From Planctomycetota bacterium (GTDB lineage Bacteria > Planctomycetota > GCA-2746535): a stretch of 64,000 nt of DNA. The DNA lies in contig NVWA01000002.1 in the NCBI GenBank assembly GCA_002746535.1, forward strand, positions 77,029-141,028, in the 5' to 3' direction. Positions 32,750 through 49,545 of this stretch are shown here, one piece after another. Every line of letters starts with the position of its first letter. Positions within the stretch are counted from its first letter, which is position 1. A program made the translations under genes and the position numbers. The notes beneath the pieces are model-generated. The model ran no database searches and had not been told where the DNA came from. It was given only the letters and a program-made list of their open reading frames with translations.

Positions 32750-34243
32750 CTAATGACAACAATCAGAATCACCAAGAATCTCCGAAGAAAATCCGATTTC
32801 TTTTAGCTTCGAAACAATCAGGCTTTCATCTATTTTATTGGCAGATTCAAATTCAATTATTTTAGTTTCTAAATCCACATTTTTCATACTAAGATCAGAT
32901 AAACCTGCCAAAGCTCCTTCAATTTTCTTAACACAATTTTGACAAACCATATCTTCAACTTTAATATTCAAGTGATGATTTTCGACCTGGATGATCTCAG
33001 CTGGAAAGCCAATATCATTTAACTTGGATAAGATCATCTCTTGATCCAGGCCTTGAGAGGATGAAACCTGAATTGTTTTAGCTTTGATATCAACATTGCT
33101 TATAACCAAATCAGGTATAGAGGATATAGCACCATCTATTTTTTTGACACAATTTTCGCAAGTAATCTTATCTATCTTGAGATTTAATTCATTTTCATTT
33201 ACAGCAATTTTTTTCTTCGAAAACTTGTACTTTAATGAGAAAAAATAATGGGCTCCAAAAGCACCTATCATCAACCAAGTTGCTGATATTATTATCCATT
33301 GACTACTCATTTCTTCATGATTGTGGGCAAGATGGCTATTGACCAAACTCATATCCCCCCAGAATTCTCCCATGACCCAGCCAGCGACAATTGAACCAGT
33401 AAAAATAACGCCTAAATATAAAAACATTGTTTTAACTTTAAAGAGCGAGGTCACTGTTGATATAGTTGTGATATTAGTTGCAGGTCCTGCAATTAAAAAT
33501 ACAAATGCCAACTCTGGTTTCATACCTGCCATAATAAAGGCTGCCGCAATAGGCGTACTACCCGTTGCACAAACATATACTGGAATTCCCATTAAGATAA
33601 CGATGACCATGTCCAATATCATACTGCCAGTACTGATTGTCCCAATATCCGGAAATAATTTTAGTTCGATTCCAGTCAATAGAATTGCAGCCAGAATCAC
33701 ACCAATAAATAAAGTATTCGCTAAGGATGGAAATAAATCAAAAATGACATAGTTCACACACTCTTTTAAATTGTCTTTGAAAGAGGCTGTAGATTCTTCT
33801 GAATTTTGACTAATACTTTTTGTATCATCTTTAAAAAACAGTATTTGCAAGAACCCGCTTAATAATCCCAATATTAAAGCAACTATAGGTCGAGCAATTA
33901 CCAAAGGTGGTGGCAACATAGCCATGGACATAGCAATAGAATCAACCCCAGTAACTGGTGTCGAAGTTAAAAAGGATAATGTTGCTCCATCCGAAGCACC
34001 ACTTTTTCTTAATGATACCCCTACCGGAATAACACTACAACTACATAATGGCATGGGCACACCGATTAAAGAAGCCGTCACAACTGACATAGCATTTCTT
34101 TTTCCCATTAGTTTTTGAATTGTATTTGGTTTTATAAATAGACGCAGAAGAGCAGAAAGAAAAAAGCCTAATAATAAATAAACAGAAAATGATTCGAGAG
34201 TCAAAAATAGTTTTTGACCAAAGATAATTATTGTATTCATCAT
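32750..34243 (-). CDS. SO_0444-type heavy-metal efflux permease with two HMA domains
   Basis: The 497-residue protein has an ArsP_1/DUF318-type permease core of eight or more membrane helices. A PLCSCSVIP motif puts Cys67 and Cys69 in the putative transport path, as in SO_0444-family Cu/Zn exporters. The C-terminus carries two HMA-like domains with CENC (362-365) and CQNC (434-437), exactly 72 residues apart and clearly duplicated, and a terminal CCH. The His/Glu-rich loop SHLAHNHEEM may also bind metal. One base separates its start from the mlaE stop. Export of Cu, Zn or a related ion is inferred from family and motifs. Confidence 0.82.
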   Translation of the reverse strand: MMNTIIIFGQKLFLTLESFSVYLLLGFFLSALLRLFIKPNTIQKLMGKRNAMSVVTASLIGVPMPLCSCSVIPVGVSLRKSGASDGATLSFLTSTPVTGVDSIAMSMAMLPPPLVIARPIVALILGLLSGFLQILFFKDDTKSISQNSEESTASFKDNLKECVNYVIFDLFPSLANTLFIGVILAAILLTGIELKLFPDIGTISTGSMILDMVIVILMGIPVYVCATGSTPIAAAFIMAGMKPELAFVFLIAGPATNITTISTVTSLFKVKTMFLYLGVIFTGSIVAGWVMGEFWGDMSLVNSHLAHNHEEMSSQWIIISATWLMIGAFGAHYFFSLKYKFSKKKIAVNENELNLKIDKITCENCVKKIDGAISSIPDLVISNVDIKAKTIQVSSSQGLDQEMILSKLNDIGFPAEIIQVENHHLNIKVEDMVCQNCVKKIEGALAGLSDLSMKNVDLETKIIEFESANKIDESLIVSKLKEIGFSSEILGDSDCCH

Positions 34244-34244
34244 T

Positions 34245-35081
34245 TTAAAACGCGAAATAAAATAAATAAGTTAATAAAAATCCTAAAATAATGACCATCA
34301 AATAAGAATACACGACTGATAATCGTGTAGACTTCCCAACCCCCATTGCGCCATTTGTCGTTAATAGTCCTTGAGCACAACCAATTACACTAATGACAAA
34401 GCCAAATACAAAAGATTTTAAAATACCCGTCAGCACATCTTTAGGTAAATTTCCAGGCCACATATTCATCGATAATATAAATTTTGCATTTTCGTAATAG
34501 CTAGCAAACGAGACATCTAAGTTAGTGGCTCCAACAATAGCACCGCCAAAAATACCAACGATATCTGTCACAACGGTCACTGCCGGACACATGATCGTCA
34601 AAGCAAAGACTCTTTGGGCGACCAAAAACTTCACGGGGCTGATCGACATCACTTCCAAGGCATCCAGTTCTTCAGAGACTGCCATCGTACCTATTTCTGC
34701 TGTCATAGAAGAAGTTACTGTAGCAGCTAATATCAAACCCGTCATGAATGGTCCCATCTCACGACAAATACTTACTGCTACTACACCACCAATAAATTCT
34801 TCCTGACCGAATCTTTTTAATTCTAAACCTGTTTGAGTTGCAATAATCATACCCGTAAAAGCAGCCACAATCAATACTACCCCTAAACTTCCAACACCAG
34901 ATATATACATTTGCTTGACAGTACCCCTCCATCTTAAAAAGACATAAGGGATATATAAAAAACATTCTAATCCTATTCTGGTTGTATAACCAACGACATA
35001 AATAAATTCTTTAAAAGATTTGCCTATCTCAGCAATGGTAGAAAGAGGAAAAGGATAATTAGCGACTTTATTTAATTTCAT
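34245..35081 (-). CDS. mlaE: MlaE-family ABC transporter permease
   Basis: The 278-residue inner-membrane permease (ATG at 35081 preferred to GTG at 35087) belongs to the MlaE/Ttg2B family that moves phospholipids or related lipids between inner and outer membranes. Signatures: FTGMIIATQTGLELKRFGQEEFIGG, REMGPFMTGLILAATVTSSMTAEIGTM, LDALEVM. No mlaF ATPase or mlaD MCE gene is adjacent, which is unusual. It overlaps the WPF-repeat protein gene by 14 bases and abuts the metal exporter gene. Confidence 0.9.
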   Translation of the reverse strand: MKLNKVANYPFPLSTIAEIGKSFKEFIYVVGYTTRIGLECFLYIPYVFLRWRGTVKQMYISGVGSLGVVLIVAAFTGMIIATQTGLELKRFGQEEFIGGVVAVSICREMGPFMTGLILAATVTSSMTAEIGTMAVSEELDALEVMSISPVKFLVAQRVFALTIMCPAVTVVTDIVGIFGGAIVGATNLDVSFASYYENAKFILSMNMWPGNLPKDVLTGILKSFVFGFVISVIGCAQGLLTTNGAMGVGKSTRLSVVYSYLMVIILGFLLTYLFYFAF

Positions 35082-36495
35082 AACCACTCACTTCTTTTTT
35101 CCTTCTCCCAAATGGTATCCATAAAAACTTAAATCTCTTTAGGCCATTTGTTTTTTTATATTCTATCAATCCACCTAAAATTGATACTTTTTTCTTTAAA
35201 GGTGATCGTTCATAATTGAAAAGAAATGGCATTATTCTAACTTTTTTACTGTCAGGTTTTTTTTCCACTTTAACTAAATTAAATAGTAATTTCAGGCTAT
35301 ACCATTTCTTCTTCTGATACTTCAATTGAAACAATCTAAAAAAGACGGCATAGTTATTTTCAAACCCACCTTTTTTAGAATCTTTGAACCAAAACGGTGA
35401 CAAGATATCTATCGATTTTTCCGCATCATCTTTTTTGGCATATTGATAGAAAGGCCAAACTTTAAATCTTTTCCGTTCTGTCTTCTTGATCTTATCCACA
35501 TAATGAAATCGCCAAAAAAATGGAAATAGCCACGTCCGAGAATTCATTAATCGTTTATTTTCTCTTTTTTCAGTTCTAAAAAACGGCCAGAACAACTCAT
35601 GTCGTTTATAATCACTATCTTTGTGCCAAGAATATAATGGAAATATTTTGAAAACTGATTTTGTGTCGCCAGATCCAAATTTAAAAAAAGGCCACAATAA
35701 AGTATATACAACTTCATTTTTTTTGGGGTATTCCAACCTTTTATACAAAGGCCACAGTATTGTTTTTTCTTTTTTCGATCGTGAATCGTAAAAACTATAG
35801 AAAGGAAAGCTTACAAAAGATCGCGACACACTACCATTATTATTAAACCGATTTACTTTAGACCAAAATGGCCAACAACAAAATATTCTCTCTTCAAATA
35901 TTTCAACTTTTTTTTCTGTCTTATAAATATTATAAGTTCCATAAAATGGCCAGAACCTCCAGCCATCTTTTTTAGGACCCGTTATCGTTTGCACAAATGG
36001 ATATAAATAATTCCTTGAAACAAACCCTTTATATTCTGATTTGTAATACAAAGGAAAAAGTATAAAAGAAATTTTTTCTTTGCCGAGTAACCCTTTAACC
36101 TGTCCACCAAAGGGAAAAAAGGCAAAATATTTCCCCTCTTTCGTATCATTACCGTAGGCAATAAAAGGCATAAAAAGAAAATCAAAATCACGATGCCCCA
36201 TAACGTTTTTATCAGTAATGTATAAAAAGGGGTAAAAATTAAATCTCTTTCTTTCCTTCGTTTTTTGATAAAAAAACAATGGCCACAAAAGCTGCAACTG
36301 TTCAAAAACAACTTCTTTACTTAAAGATTGGTACACAGTAAAAAAGGGTCTGAAGCTTGTTTTCTTGATTTTAATTTTCCCCTCTTTTTTTACTTTTTTT
36401 TCATAAAAAGGCGGAAAACTATCATCTGCATTAATAAATTGTCCATTGATCATCATTAGACAAATAATTAAAGCCGTTTTTTTTAAGAATTTCAT
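35068..36495 (-). CDS. secreted repeat protein with about 22 WPF(F/Y)-type repeats
   Basis: The 475-residue protein has a signal peptide (about 1-23, ending INA). After it comes a regular series of aromatic-Pro-aromatic motifs: RPFF50, WPLF72, YPFL89, MPFI110, FPFG128, FPLY148, YPFV166, WPFY183, WPFW209, FPFY231, WPLY249, WPFF269, FPLY286, WPFF304, FPFF325, WPFY348, SPFW367, MPFL423, IPFG461, with degenerate copies near 385, 404 and 442. Spacing is 17-26 residues. Between motifs are Lys/Arg/Asp-rich turns. This suggests stacked beta-strands or hairpins, perhaps an outer-membrane barrel or periplasmic scaffold. I do not recognise a named family. Its gene overlaps mlaE, so a lipid-transport role is inferred. 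Confidence 0.7.
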   Translation of the reverse strand: MKFLKKTALIICLMMINGQFINADDSFPPFYEKKVKKEGKIKIKKTSFRPFFTVYQSLSKEVVFEQLQLLWPLFFYQKTKERKRFNFYPFLYITDKNVMGHRDFDFLFMPFIAYGNDTKEGKYFAFFPFGGQVKGLLGKEKISFILFPLYYKSEYKGFVSRNYLYPFVQTITGPKKDGWRFWPFYGTYNIYKTEKKVEIFEERIFCCWPFWSKVNRFNNNGSVSRSFVSFPFYSFYDSRSKKEKTILWPLYKRLEYPKKNEVVYTLLWPFFKFGSGDTKSVFKIFPLYSWHKDSDYKRHELFWPFFRTEKRENKRLMNSRTWLFPFFWRFHYVDKIKKTERKRFKVWPFYQYAKKDDAEKSIDILSPFWFKDSKKGGFENNYAVFFRLFQLKYQKKKWYSLKLLFNLVKVEKKPDSKKVRIMPFLFNYERSPLKKKVSILGGLIEYKKTNGLKRFKFLWIPFGRRKKEVSGYEIK

Positions 36496-36899: not shown

Positions 36900-37247
36900 T
36901 TATTTAAAGAGAAGCTCCTGCGCTTCCTCCAAATTTTGACATAACTCAGCAACTTCATCCATACCTATGATGTTAAGCTTTTCTGAAACTTCACTATTAG
37001 CGCCACAAAGAATAATCCTTCCATTGTTTCCAACGATCACTTCTGCAGCCCAGCTAATAATTTTGAATGCAGGAGCATAAATATTATCCGCATTGGCAAC
37101 ATTAATAATGACAAAATAGCATTTTAAATCAAACGAATCTATAAGCGCTAATTGCAATTCTTCTTCACTATTACTAGAGATTTCTCCTGTAAGCTCAACA
37201 ACACATACACCATCTTCTTTAAAACTTGATGTCACCTTACCACTCAT
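36900..37247 (-). CDS. STAS-domain protein lacking the phosphorylatable serine
   Basis: The 115-residue protein has the fold pattern of anti-sigma-factor antagonists (VCVVELTGEIS..., FVIINVANADNIYAPAFKIISW, GRIILCGANSEV). At the loop where SpoIIAA-type proteins carry DxxSS before helix 3, it has NIYAPAF, so the regulated serine is missing. It may act as a constitutive binding partner. It follows a 101-residue hypothetical gene by 24 bp. Confidence 0.7.
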   Translation of the reverse strand: MSGKVTSSFKEDGVCVVELTGEISSNSEEELQLALIDSFDLKCYFVIINVANADNIYAPAFKIISWAAEVIVGNNGRIILCGANSEVSEKLNIIGMDEVAELCQNLEEAQELLFK

Positions 37248-37271: not shown

Positions 37272-37577
37272 TTATTCTGTTGCTTTTTCAAATACAATAT
37301 TGATATCGGACCAATTTAACTTTTTAGGAAATTCGCCCTTAACAACTTCAATATTTTCTGAAATGTTTTCATATAAAACTTCTGACTTTAACCAGTCAAT
37401 TAAGATCAAAGGATTTTCCATGGCTTCATCAAAGATTTCACCATATACAATTGAATAGGCTTTCACCATTGAGTCGGTTTCCTTTTTTGCAACTTTTTTT
37501 GCCTTGTGGTCTGCTATTAACGATGCACTAATGCACCCTTCTATTTCACTGTTTTCAAAACGTAACTTAGCATGCAT
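37272..37577 (-). CDS. hypothetical small soluble protein
   Basis: The 101-residue protein has AAAGG about ten bases before the ATG. Its charge pattern looks mixed helix and strand, and I see no recognised motif. It is probably co-transcribed with the downstream STAS gene, so it may take part in the same partner-switching signalling. Confidence 0.6.
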   Translation of the reverse strand: MHAKLRFENSEIEGCISASLIADHKAKKVAKKETDSMVKAYSIVYGEIFDEAMENPLILIDWLKSEVLYENISENIEVVKGEFPKKLNWSDINIVFEKATE

Positions 37578-47229: not shown

Positions 47230-49545
47230 ATGACTAATCAAACGTTGATTAAAACCCTCTTCTTAGTTTTGTTTGCAATAATACTCTTATTATCTTCTAT
47301 AATATTTTGGTTAATAAATGTTGAGGAACCTCCTCAAATAAACACACCTCTTCCAAAAAAAATATCCTTTAGAAACCCTCCAAGAGAGAACCCTATCACT
47401 GAAAAGACCTCAGAAACACCTGAACCACCCATAATTGAAAAAATACAAAAAACCTTTCCTCCATTAAAGCATATAAAAGACAACAGCTCGAAAAATATTC
47501 CTCACAATTCAGAAAAGGTGAAATCTAAAATTATCAAAAATAAAAAAGTGCTTACAAAACAAAAGTATTTTTATGAAATTGATAAATCTAAAATCAAACG
47601 ATATCCAGGTTATGCTAGTTTTTTATTATTGGATCGCAGATCTAAAATTATAGCCCTTGATGCAACTATCATGGTAAAGCTATGGCGTAAATTAGGACCG
47701 TACACATTGCAAGAAGATGTTTTCTTCTCATCAAAACATAGCTCAATCTATTGCAGTGGTGCAGATTATAAAGGCATGGAAAAAGGGCAATACTATCTCC
47801 AAATTATCAGCAAAAAATATGGGAGCTTACAACATTCCTTTGAAATCACAAATCACAAAACCAATATTAAAGATATCCTATATCTACCCTACTATAGAAA
47901 AATCATATCATTTAATTTCGTGGACAGCGAAAATCAACCGATCAAATACTTATCACATTTACCAGAATACACGCCAAATTATTTTTCTCGTCTAAGAAAT
48001 CAACCAAATATTTTTGAAGACTCTATCTTTTATGATAATCATACGGCAGGATTTAATCGCCAATCAAACTCAAATAAAAAATTAAAAAAAGAAAAGAAAA
48101 AACTAAATTTACCTTCGAAGCACCTTACTGATCAAGGACTTCTTTATTTCGCTGTTTATGTCGGCAATCGTGCTAGACTGAAAATACCTTTTAAGAATTC
48201 TAAAAAATATTTATTAGAAGTAACCAGCAAATTTGAAGAACATCATTGGAACGAATATACAATTCAAGTTAATAACAGTAAAAGTTATTTGACGTATGTT
48301 GATTCAGTCAAAAAAATTAAAAATAAAAATGACCCTGGTTATAAATCTCTGAAGCAAAGACTCTCAATTAATAACCAAACCAAAGAACGAAAACCTTTTA
48401 TAGTGCCGAATAAAATCAAATCTGATCAAGCTCTCACCATTTTTACCATTAATTCAAATGCACGATTAAGCCTACTTTATAAAAAAGAACAAGATTCAGA
48501 ATCAGCCATCACGATCATGCCACAAAACAATAAAATCTTTCTAAATCTTAGTAAAAAAAACTTATCAAACACGCGTTATATCAACTATGCCTTTACTGAT
48601 AAAAAGTTTTATTTATCCGATTGGCAATTACATATTCCCAATTATGGAATTAAAAAATATTACCGTTATTCCTTCTTTTTAAAAAGCATTAAATTAGAAT
48701 TGGAAAGCACCCCGACTTTAACTGAGCTCCTCTATAATCGAACTAGAGTCAAAGGAAAGAATGTCGTGAATTTCAATTTTAAAAAATCAGACGATCAACT
48801 TATTCTAAACTCTTACATTGATTTAAACGCTACAAACAATCTGAACAACTACAAAAAATTAAAATTATATTTCAATAACTATACAGAAATTAAAAAATAT
48901 AATAAACTTTTCAATTTTAATAAAAATCATAAACAAATTTCGTTCTATTCAAAATCCCATACAAATTATTCAACAATAGCCAAATCAAACTTGAATATAA
49001 CTCACAAAATAATTGACAAAATAAAAACGGGATCTTACAAATTTAGAAATCTAATTAAAGGCGTTGTCTTTAAAGTTATAGATGATAACAATGCTGGGCT
49101 TCCTTGGGTCGAAGTTGCTATTTTTCCAATGGAACAAAAAGAAGAAATATTAAAAAATTTAAAACTGTTTAATAAACACTTAGATAACCAAACTAGATCT
49201 ACTTTGCTTTATTGGATTAAAAATAGAAATAAAAGAGAGATATACCGCGACTACCATCCTCAAACTATTATTAGCCGAAATGAAGGGTTTAAGCTAGCTG
49301 AAAAGCTAAGTCCCTACTTTGCTATAGAAAATAACAAAAAAGGCTCCTATAAAACAATCATTTCTGATAAAAGAGGGTATGTCTTCATTAACAAAAATAA
49401 TTTAGCACCCGGTAATAATTATGTTTTATATTTATATTCAAATTCTCGAGAAATATTAAACCCCGATAAGATACTTCCCTTTACTGCAACAAAAGGTATT
49501 ACAGATTTAGGAGCTATTGAACTACCAAATTATCAACAAAACTAA
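47230..49545 (+). CDS. large membrane-anchored protein of unknown function
   Basis: The 771-residue protein has one N-terminal membrane helix (about 8-30), a Pro/Lys-rich periplasmic stalk (about 33-115), and a long region very rich in Lys, Asn, Tyr and Ile without recognised domains. The last 160 residues include GVVFKVIDDNNAGLPWVEVAIFP... SDKRGYVFINKNNLAPGNNYVLYLYS, the pattern of a carboxypeptidase-regulatory/CnaB-like beta-sandwich. It converges with the PhyH-like gene, leaving 10 bp between stops. Confidence 0.65.
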   Translation: MTNQTLIKTLFLVLFAIILLLSSIIFWLINVEEPPQINTPLPKKISFRNPPRENPITEKTSETPEPPIIEKIQKTFPPLKHIKDNSSKNIPHNSEKVKSKIIKNKKVLTKQKYFYEIDKSKIKRYPGYASFLLLDRRSKIIALDATIMVKLWRKLGPYTLQEDVFFSSKHSSIYCSGADYKGMEKGQYYLQIISKKYGSLQHSFEITNHKTNIKDILYLPYYRKIISFNFVDSENQPIKYLSHLPEYTPNYFSRLRNQPNIFEDSIFYDNHTAGFNRQSNSNKKLKKEKKKLNLPSKHLTDQGLLYFAVYVGNRARLKIPFKNSKKYLLEVTSKFEEHHWNEYTIQVNNSKSYLTYVDSVKKIKNKNDPGYKSLKQRLSINNQTKERKPFIVPNKIKSDQALTIFTINSNARLSLLYKKEQDSESAITIMPQNNKIFLNLSKKNLSNTRYINYAFTDKKFYLSDWQLHIPNYGIKKYYRYSFFLKSIKLELESTPTLTELLYNRTRVKGKNVVNFNFKKSDDQLILNSYIDLNATNNLNNYKKLKLYFNNYTEIKKYNKLFNFNKNHKQISFYSKSHTNYSTIAKSNLNITHKIIDKIKTGSYKFRNLIKGVVFKVIDDNNAGLPWVEVAIFPMEQKEEILKNLKLFNKHLDNQTRSTLLYWIKNRNKREIYRDYHPQTIISRNEGFKLAEKLSPYFAIENNKKGSYKTIISDKRGYVFINKNNLAPGNNYVLYLYSNSREILNPDKILPFTATKGITDLGAIELPNYQQN

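Follow-up and report, generated by a model that had tools for sequence, protein, structure and literature searches.

The window analysed here, a stretch of 64,000 nucleotides from a member of the Planctomycetota, encodes an exported repeat protein, which we call WPF, directly upstream of mlaE, the permease gene of an MCE-type lipid transporter. We consider it probable that WPF is the docking component of this transporter, MlaEFD, on the outer-membrane side. The transporter itself is of a known kind; the WPF component belongs to a family without a curated model. The features of the locus are collected in Table 1.

Table 1. Features of the WPF-mlaE locus, in positions of the window
Feature	Position	Strand	Evidence
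mlaE, MCE-type lipid ABC transporter permease	34245..35081	(-)	PF02405, TIGR00056, single copy, tree position
WPF-repeat protein gene, 475 aa	35068..36495	(-)	open reading frame; homologs immediately 5' of mlaE in several phyla; AlphaFold2 model
Signal peptide, N-terminal, about residues 1-23, ending INA/DD	36427..36495	(-)	sequence and ortholog N-termini
WPF-repeat region, residues 29-462	35110..36411	(-)	motif scan and family alignment

The original prediction of a secreted protein is borne out by the reading frame, which has a Sec-type N-terminus (MKFLKKTALIICLMMINGQFINADD), and a hydrophobic N-terminal stretch is found in nearly all WPF orthologs. The protein of the window has no lipobox, whereas many orthologs carry a lipobox cysteine, about half of those within the phylum; none was found in WPF of the Desulfuromonadales sampled. 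The repeat had not been recognised as a member of any family, and sequence searches of Pfam, NCBIfam and the PDB with the window protein indeed gave no match, nor did it match PF03886 (PqiC / ABC_trans_aux). The only named relative, a distant one judging from profile similarity, is the C-terminal domain of the LA_1737 family (NCBIfam NF047486, function unknown), which weakly resembles a few WPF orthologs, always below the curated cut-off of 60 bits (best ortholog 23 bits, best paralog 50.6 bits), and the profile of which does not match the window protein. The basic turns noted earlier describe the window protein, which is rich in lysine (94 K+R vs 40 D+E), but not the family, in which these charges are near balance; as the K-richness is peculiar to the window protein, we rejected basic turns as a family trait.

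The assignment of mlaE, which starts with the ATG at 35081, is given by PF02405 (E=6e-65, 219 bits for a curated cut-off of 22.5) and TIGR00056 (221 bits, cut-off 212). Its overlap with the WPF gene is exactly 14 bases, as had been stated, and no mlaF or mlaD adjoins it. It was therefore described as an orphan, which is true locally but not for the genome (6.76 Mb, 106 contigs, 89% complete): this contains exactly one MlaE, that of the window, and one MlaD, encoded on another contig (C34) directly 3' of a gene for an MlaF-type ATPase, and hence all three parts of an MlaEFD transporter are encoded. Both loci are well inside their contigs, far from the ends, so the split of the operon is real and not an assembly edge. 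With mlaF and mlaD present elsewhere, the idea that WPF replaces a missing MCE partner is wrong; MlaD is usually encoded in the same operon as WPF and, in this genome, at a distance from it. The mlaF-mlaD pair, the only one of the genome (L006:7128-8749), is found immediately downstream of type II secretion / type IV pilus genes, namely genes for an ATPase and membrane proteins that are pilB/pilT/pilC-like by sequence reading.

We searched 59 genomes of the same phylum and found WPF relatives in 34 of them; a full-length ortholog is encoded in 28 genomes, the present one included. Gene order at these loci was read by six-frame profile searches: WPF lies directly 5' of mlaE in 25 of the 27 full-length relatives, and in most cases mlaF and mlaD come next on that strand. 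The two exceptions (G025 and G050) have WPF away from mlaE, beside the gene of a small coiled-coil lipoprotein of 85 aa, which is situated directly 3' of WPF (L040:7915-8172 and L042:7632-7892). Among GTDB species genomes, a scan identified 38 named WPF loci from many phyla and groups, including Planctomycetota, Kiritimatiellota, Verrucomicrobia, Lentisphaerota, Desulfuromonadales, Nitrospirota, Methylomirabilota and Dadabacteria. WPF is directly 5' of mlaE in 35 of these 38 loci; in two of the others the contig stops just past WPF, and in the third (L073) WPF is between mlaF and mlaD. Sampling around two further groups detected WPF in 31/58 and 43/96 genomes, with mlaE directly 3' of it in 30/30 and 27/30 of the loci examined. 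Across phyla the median identity of WPF is 25%, and the linkage to mlaE is still kept. The original prediction was to stand or fall with this linkage, and on this point it stands.

All 59 relatives within the phylum encode at least one MlaE and many encode several, so the nearness of WPF to just any MlaE is not the point. We therefore built a maximum-likelihood tree of 103 MlaE sequences, 60 linked to WPF and 43 unlinked. All but one of the WPF-linked sequences (59/60), that of the window included, fall into one clade (support 98/83), in which there are only 8 unlinked members, the 35 other unlinked MlaE being outside; the linkage label requires 6 changes on the tree, against 33 in shuffles. 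Pairwise distances of WPF and of MlaE are correlated (r=0.78, with 0 of 2000 permutations as high), a correlation that is explained by shared descent of the operon and that shows co-inheritance, not contact.

The 8 unlinked members of the clade can be subdivided according to their genomes. One (L073) has WPF in the same cluster and another (G025) has it elsewhere in the genome, while the other six (G001, G006, G008, G009, G012 and G045) have an MlaD that is extended at the C-terminus by an extra domain of about 200 aa; this is homologous in five of the six and weakly so in the sixth. No full-length WPF was found in any of these six genomes, two of which (G001 and G008) gave partial matches to unlinked WPF-repeat proteins, and the profile of the extra domain had no match in the WPF-linked MlaD or the WPF loci. 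The six occur at several separate places within the MlaE clade. The extra domain has no match in Pfam; by its position, the domain order and its sequence pattern it resembles the barrel of Veillonella MlaD and may be barrel-like. Chou-Fasman propensities, also tried on this domain, did not discriminate and were dropped. These long MlaD proteins (L106, L110, L112, L113, L114 and L121) are observed in this phylum, though a phylogenomic survey, which brings up proteins still to be identified, reports that MlaD of the PVC group is without a barrel (PMC10665443).

The WPF-linked MlaD, in most of the complete cases, end in a conserved C-terminal tail with the consensus DxREQAPIxTFxxxLFGAF. The MlaD of the present genome (267 aa) has a short tail ending in LREQAPITTFSGTLLGAF and no barrel-like domain, and the presence of the conserved tail on this distant protein ties the two separated loci together. 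In a model of MlaD from a WPF operon (L085), a transmembrane helix and the MCE domain are followed by a helical part of about 230 aa; neither beta structure nor a barrel is predicted at the C-terminus, and confidence is low for everything past the MCE domain.

Other outer-membrane modules of MCE systems show a similar distribution. PqiC-type PF03886 proteins are encoded in 15 of the 59 genomes. Almost all are only a few kb away from other MlaE paralogs, and none was found on any contig with a WPF operon or in the present genome. MlaA is encoded in 6/59 and MlaC in 3/59 genomes of the phylum, and the three with MlaC have no WPF. The present genome, at 89% completeness, gave no match to MlaA (PF04333) or MlaC (PF05494) and thus does not encode the canonical E. 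coli-type Mla pathway. Two WPF-positive genomes (G044 and G051) also have MlaA; in one of them the gene of the MlaA homolog (G051:C56:45055-45594) shares a contig with a WPF-mlaEFD operon and is a few kb away from it, a rare instance of the two in one neighbourhood. Every operon type thus tends to come with a single outer-membrane module, either MlaA/MlaC, PqiC, the C-terminal domain of MlaD, or WPF, and it is an element of this kind, the barrel-like domain of MlaD, MlaA/MlaC or PqiC, that WPF seems to replace.

This complementarity, together with a linkage that persists at 25% median identity across phyla and that tracks one MlaE clade, argues against the proposal that WPF serves in the periplasm to assemble or stabilise MlaE and MlaD, or that it is only co-transcribed and has an unrelated function (for example in peptidoglycan or surface binding). 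The existence of long WPF-repeat paralogs without mla neighbours would fit such a role, which we nevertheless regard as distinctly unlikely.

The repeat itself consists of 15 motifs in an unbroken series between residues 71 and 349, spaced by 17-26 residues, with single further motifs before and after. The window protein has 17 motifs of the form [WFYLIM]-P-[hydrophobic] (shuffles: mean 3.8, maximum 11) and 10 strict aromatic-P-aromatic motifs (shuffles: mean 1.4, maximum 7); depending on the definition used the count is 17-20, far above chance. Some 22 aromatic-Pro-aromatic motifs had been announced at intervals of 17-26 residues; this spacing is that of the 15 motifs of the series, but the count is lower and only 10 are strictly aromatic on both sides. 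They had also been said to end near the C-terminus, which the repeat region does, yet the series thins past residue 349. The first family alignment was too diverse for a pattern scan and a closer one was used. Pro occupies 18 columns of the family alignment in at least 60% of the rows, two of these columns (267/269) being side by side. In the family profile each Pro is surrounded by a hydrophobic centre, from position -4 to +2, with charged flanks; the hydrophobic stripe is only about 7 residues wide and is on both faces.

Structure prediction of WPF alone by AlphaFold2, from 37 sequences, gave a confident model (pLDDT 89.7, pTM 0.75) that is all-beta, with about 44 short strands. Disorder, which would have told against the original prediction, can be rejected on the strength of this confidence, and the model does not correspond to a known unrelated fold. 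Most motif prolines are located between two strands, and the strand pairs joined at each Pro measure about 13-21 residues together, with short turns on both sides. Taken with the family profile, the model suggests that WPF is a beta-meander with a crease at each Pro, along which aromatic residues form a stripe; its overall shape may be that of a groove, a ring or a flat sheet. Using Foldseek with this model against the PDB and viral libraries, we obtained no global match (TM about 0.2 or less by query length), and the fold is probably new. The matches to WD40 folds have a TM of about 0.1.

Bridge-like lipid transfer proteins have a hydrophobic groove made of repeated beta units, and WPF might work likewise, as a trans-periplasmic lipid bridge in which a long creased beta sheet would run parallel to, or instead of, the MlaD tube. 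Several observations are consistent with a bridge: the architecture is predicted to be extended and all-beta, the strands have a conserved hydrophobic centre and charged edges, and among the higher-probability local matches of Foldseek are the open, extended single-layer sheets of MORN repeats, OspA, the TCP10 domain and the ApoB beta belt. However, the long MlaD of the same operons already spans much of the periplasm, so that a second bridge would be unneeded, and no LptA, TamB or VPS13-like fold is a global match among the Foldseek matches listed; a bridge is therefore, in our opinion, unlikely.

The same model bears on whether WPF could be a beta barrel integral to the outer membrane, with some 22 kinked strands, acting as a lipid gate. 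An export signal is present, the length of the strand pairs joined at Pro would suit such a barrel, and WPF is complementary to the MlaD with a barrel-like domain. Yet Pro is mid-strand nearly everywhere, the narrow hydrophobic stripe is on both faces, the turns are short on both sides and many orthologs have a lipobox; furthermore, no bacterial outer-membrane barrel is among the top Foldseek matches listed, VDAC reaching only TM <=0.23. We find a barrel quite improbable.

The reading that we prefer, WPF as the docking component of MlaEFD, can be described as follows. MlaE and MlaF would power the inner-membrane end. MlaD would make up the MCE ring and cross the periplasm as a long helical tube, and its C-terminal tail, which is conserved and hydrophobic, would dock on the WPF protein. 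WPF, presumably lipid-anchored in many lineages, would offer the aromatic hydrophobic stripe of its Pro-creased beta-meander as a path on which lipids could travel from the tip of the MlaD tube to the outer membrane, or the other way round. It would hold the place taken elsewhere by the C-terminal barrel-like domain of MlaD, by MlaA and MlaC, or by the PqiC ring, and in the present genome it would do so with a split operon, WPF-mlaE being in the window and mlaF-mlaD elsewhere. We infer the outer-membrane location from the lipobox in some orthologs and from the nature of the modules that WPF seems to replace. Of the earlier idea of an outer-membrane or trans-periplasmic lipid conduit next to the permease, such a component accompanying the permease is thus retained, given the linkage and the confident fold, and the replacement of the MCE protein is abandoned. 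We put forward more tentatively, as something that could well be so, that WPF is a widespread and hitherto unrecognised fourth kind of MCE outer-membrane module: in Planctomycetota, Kiritimatiellota, Desulfuromonadales and other groups, a WPF-repeat beta protein of a new, extended fold would take up the conserved MlaD tail and would itself be the route of lipids to the outer membrane.

In E. coli, the outer-membrane end of the MlaFED system is formed by MlaA-OmpC and MlaC; unlike this system, both MlaA and MlaC are rare in the phylum, and the predicted all-beta WPF is dissimilar to either. The minimal MlaEFD of the Veillonella type has an outer-membrane beta barrel at the C-terminus of MlaD (PMC10665443). 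Common to that system and the present one are the mlaE-mlaF-mlaD core and a long helical MlaD, here in a genome without MlaA/MlaC; by contrast, MlaD has no barrel here and a separate exported WPF is encoded 5' of mlaE. In the PqiABC system, PqiC (ABC_trans_aux, PF03886) is an octameric outer-membrane lipoprotein ring that receives the C-terminus of PqiB (PMC10897342). WPF would be like it in being an exported accessory protein, in many cases a lipoprotein, whose gene accompanies those of an MCE system and for which a role in receiving the C-terminal end of the MCE tube is proposed, but it is made of 475 aa of repeats without sequence similarity to PqiC, and PF03886 accompanies other MlaE paralogs and not WPF. 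Among the papers searched, none was found to describe a WPF-like gene beside mlaE. WPF is a concrete candidate for the component by which an MCE system reaches the outer membrane without MlaA, MlaC or an MlaD barrel, on the grounds of its fixed place beside the transporter in several phyla and its complementarity to the known outer-membrane modules. This reading leads to testable predictions: docking of the MlaD tail, outer-membrane location and lipid binding.

WPF repeats are also present in proteins other than the operon type. Much longer WPF-repeat proteins (frames of about 1000-1700 aa; L064:6991-10041, L065:8279-12667, G001:C318 and G043:C20) are encoded away from mla genes, which indicates that the repeat has further uses, and some of them match NCBIfam LA_1737_Cterm weakly, at up to 50.6 of 60 bits. 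Shorter paralogs (L066:6001-7434 and L067:7885-9399) occur in genomes that also have an operon-type WPF, and in L066 an ABC-F-like ATPase reading frame adjoins the paralog.

Some other genes of the window deserve mention. A 771-aa protein (47230-49545) has no Pfam match at E<=0.01. Upstream of the WPF gene, and on the same strand, are encoded a STAS-domain protein (PF01740) and an unknown protein of 101 aa (36900-37247 and 37272-37577); MlaB of the E. coli transporter is a STAS protein. On the other side, an ArsP_1 permease with two heavy-metal-associated (HMA) domains (32750-34243) starts 2 bases after the end of mlaE and is followed by a response regulator and a histidine kinase, so that a metal-efflux-like cluster abuts the split mla operon.
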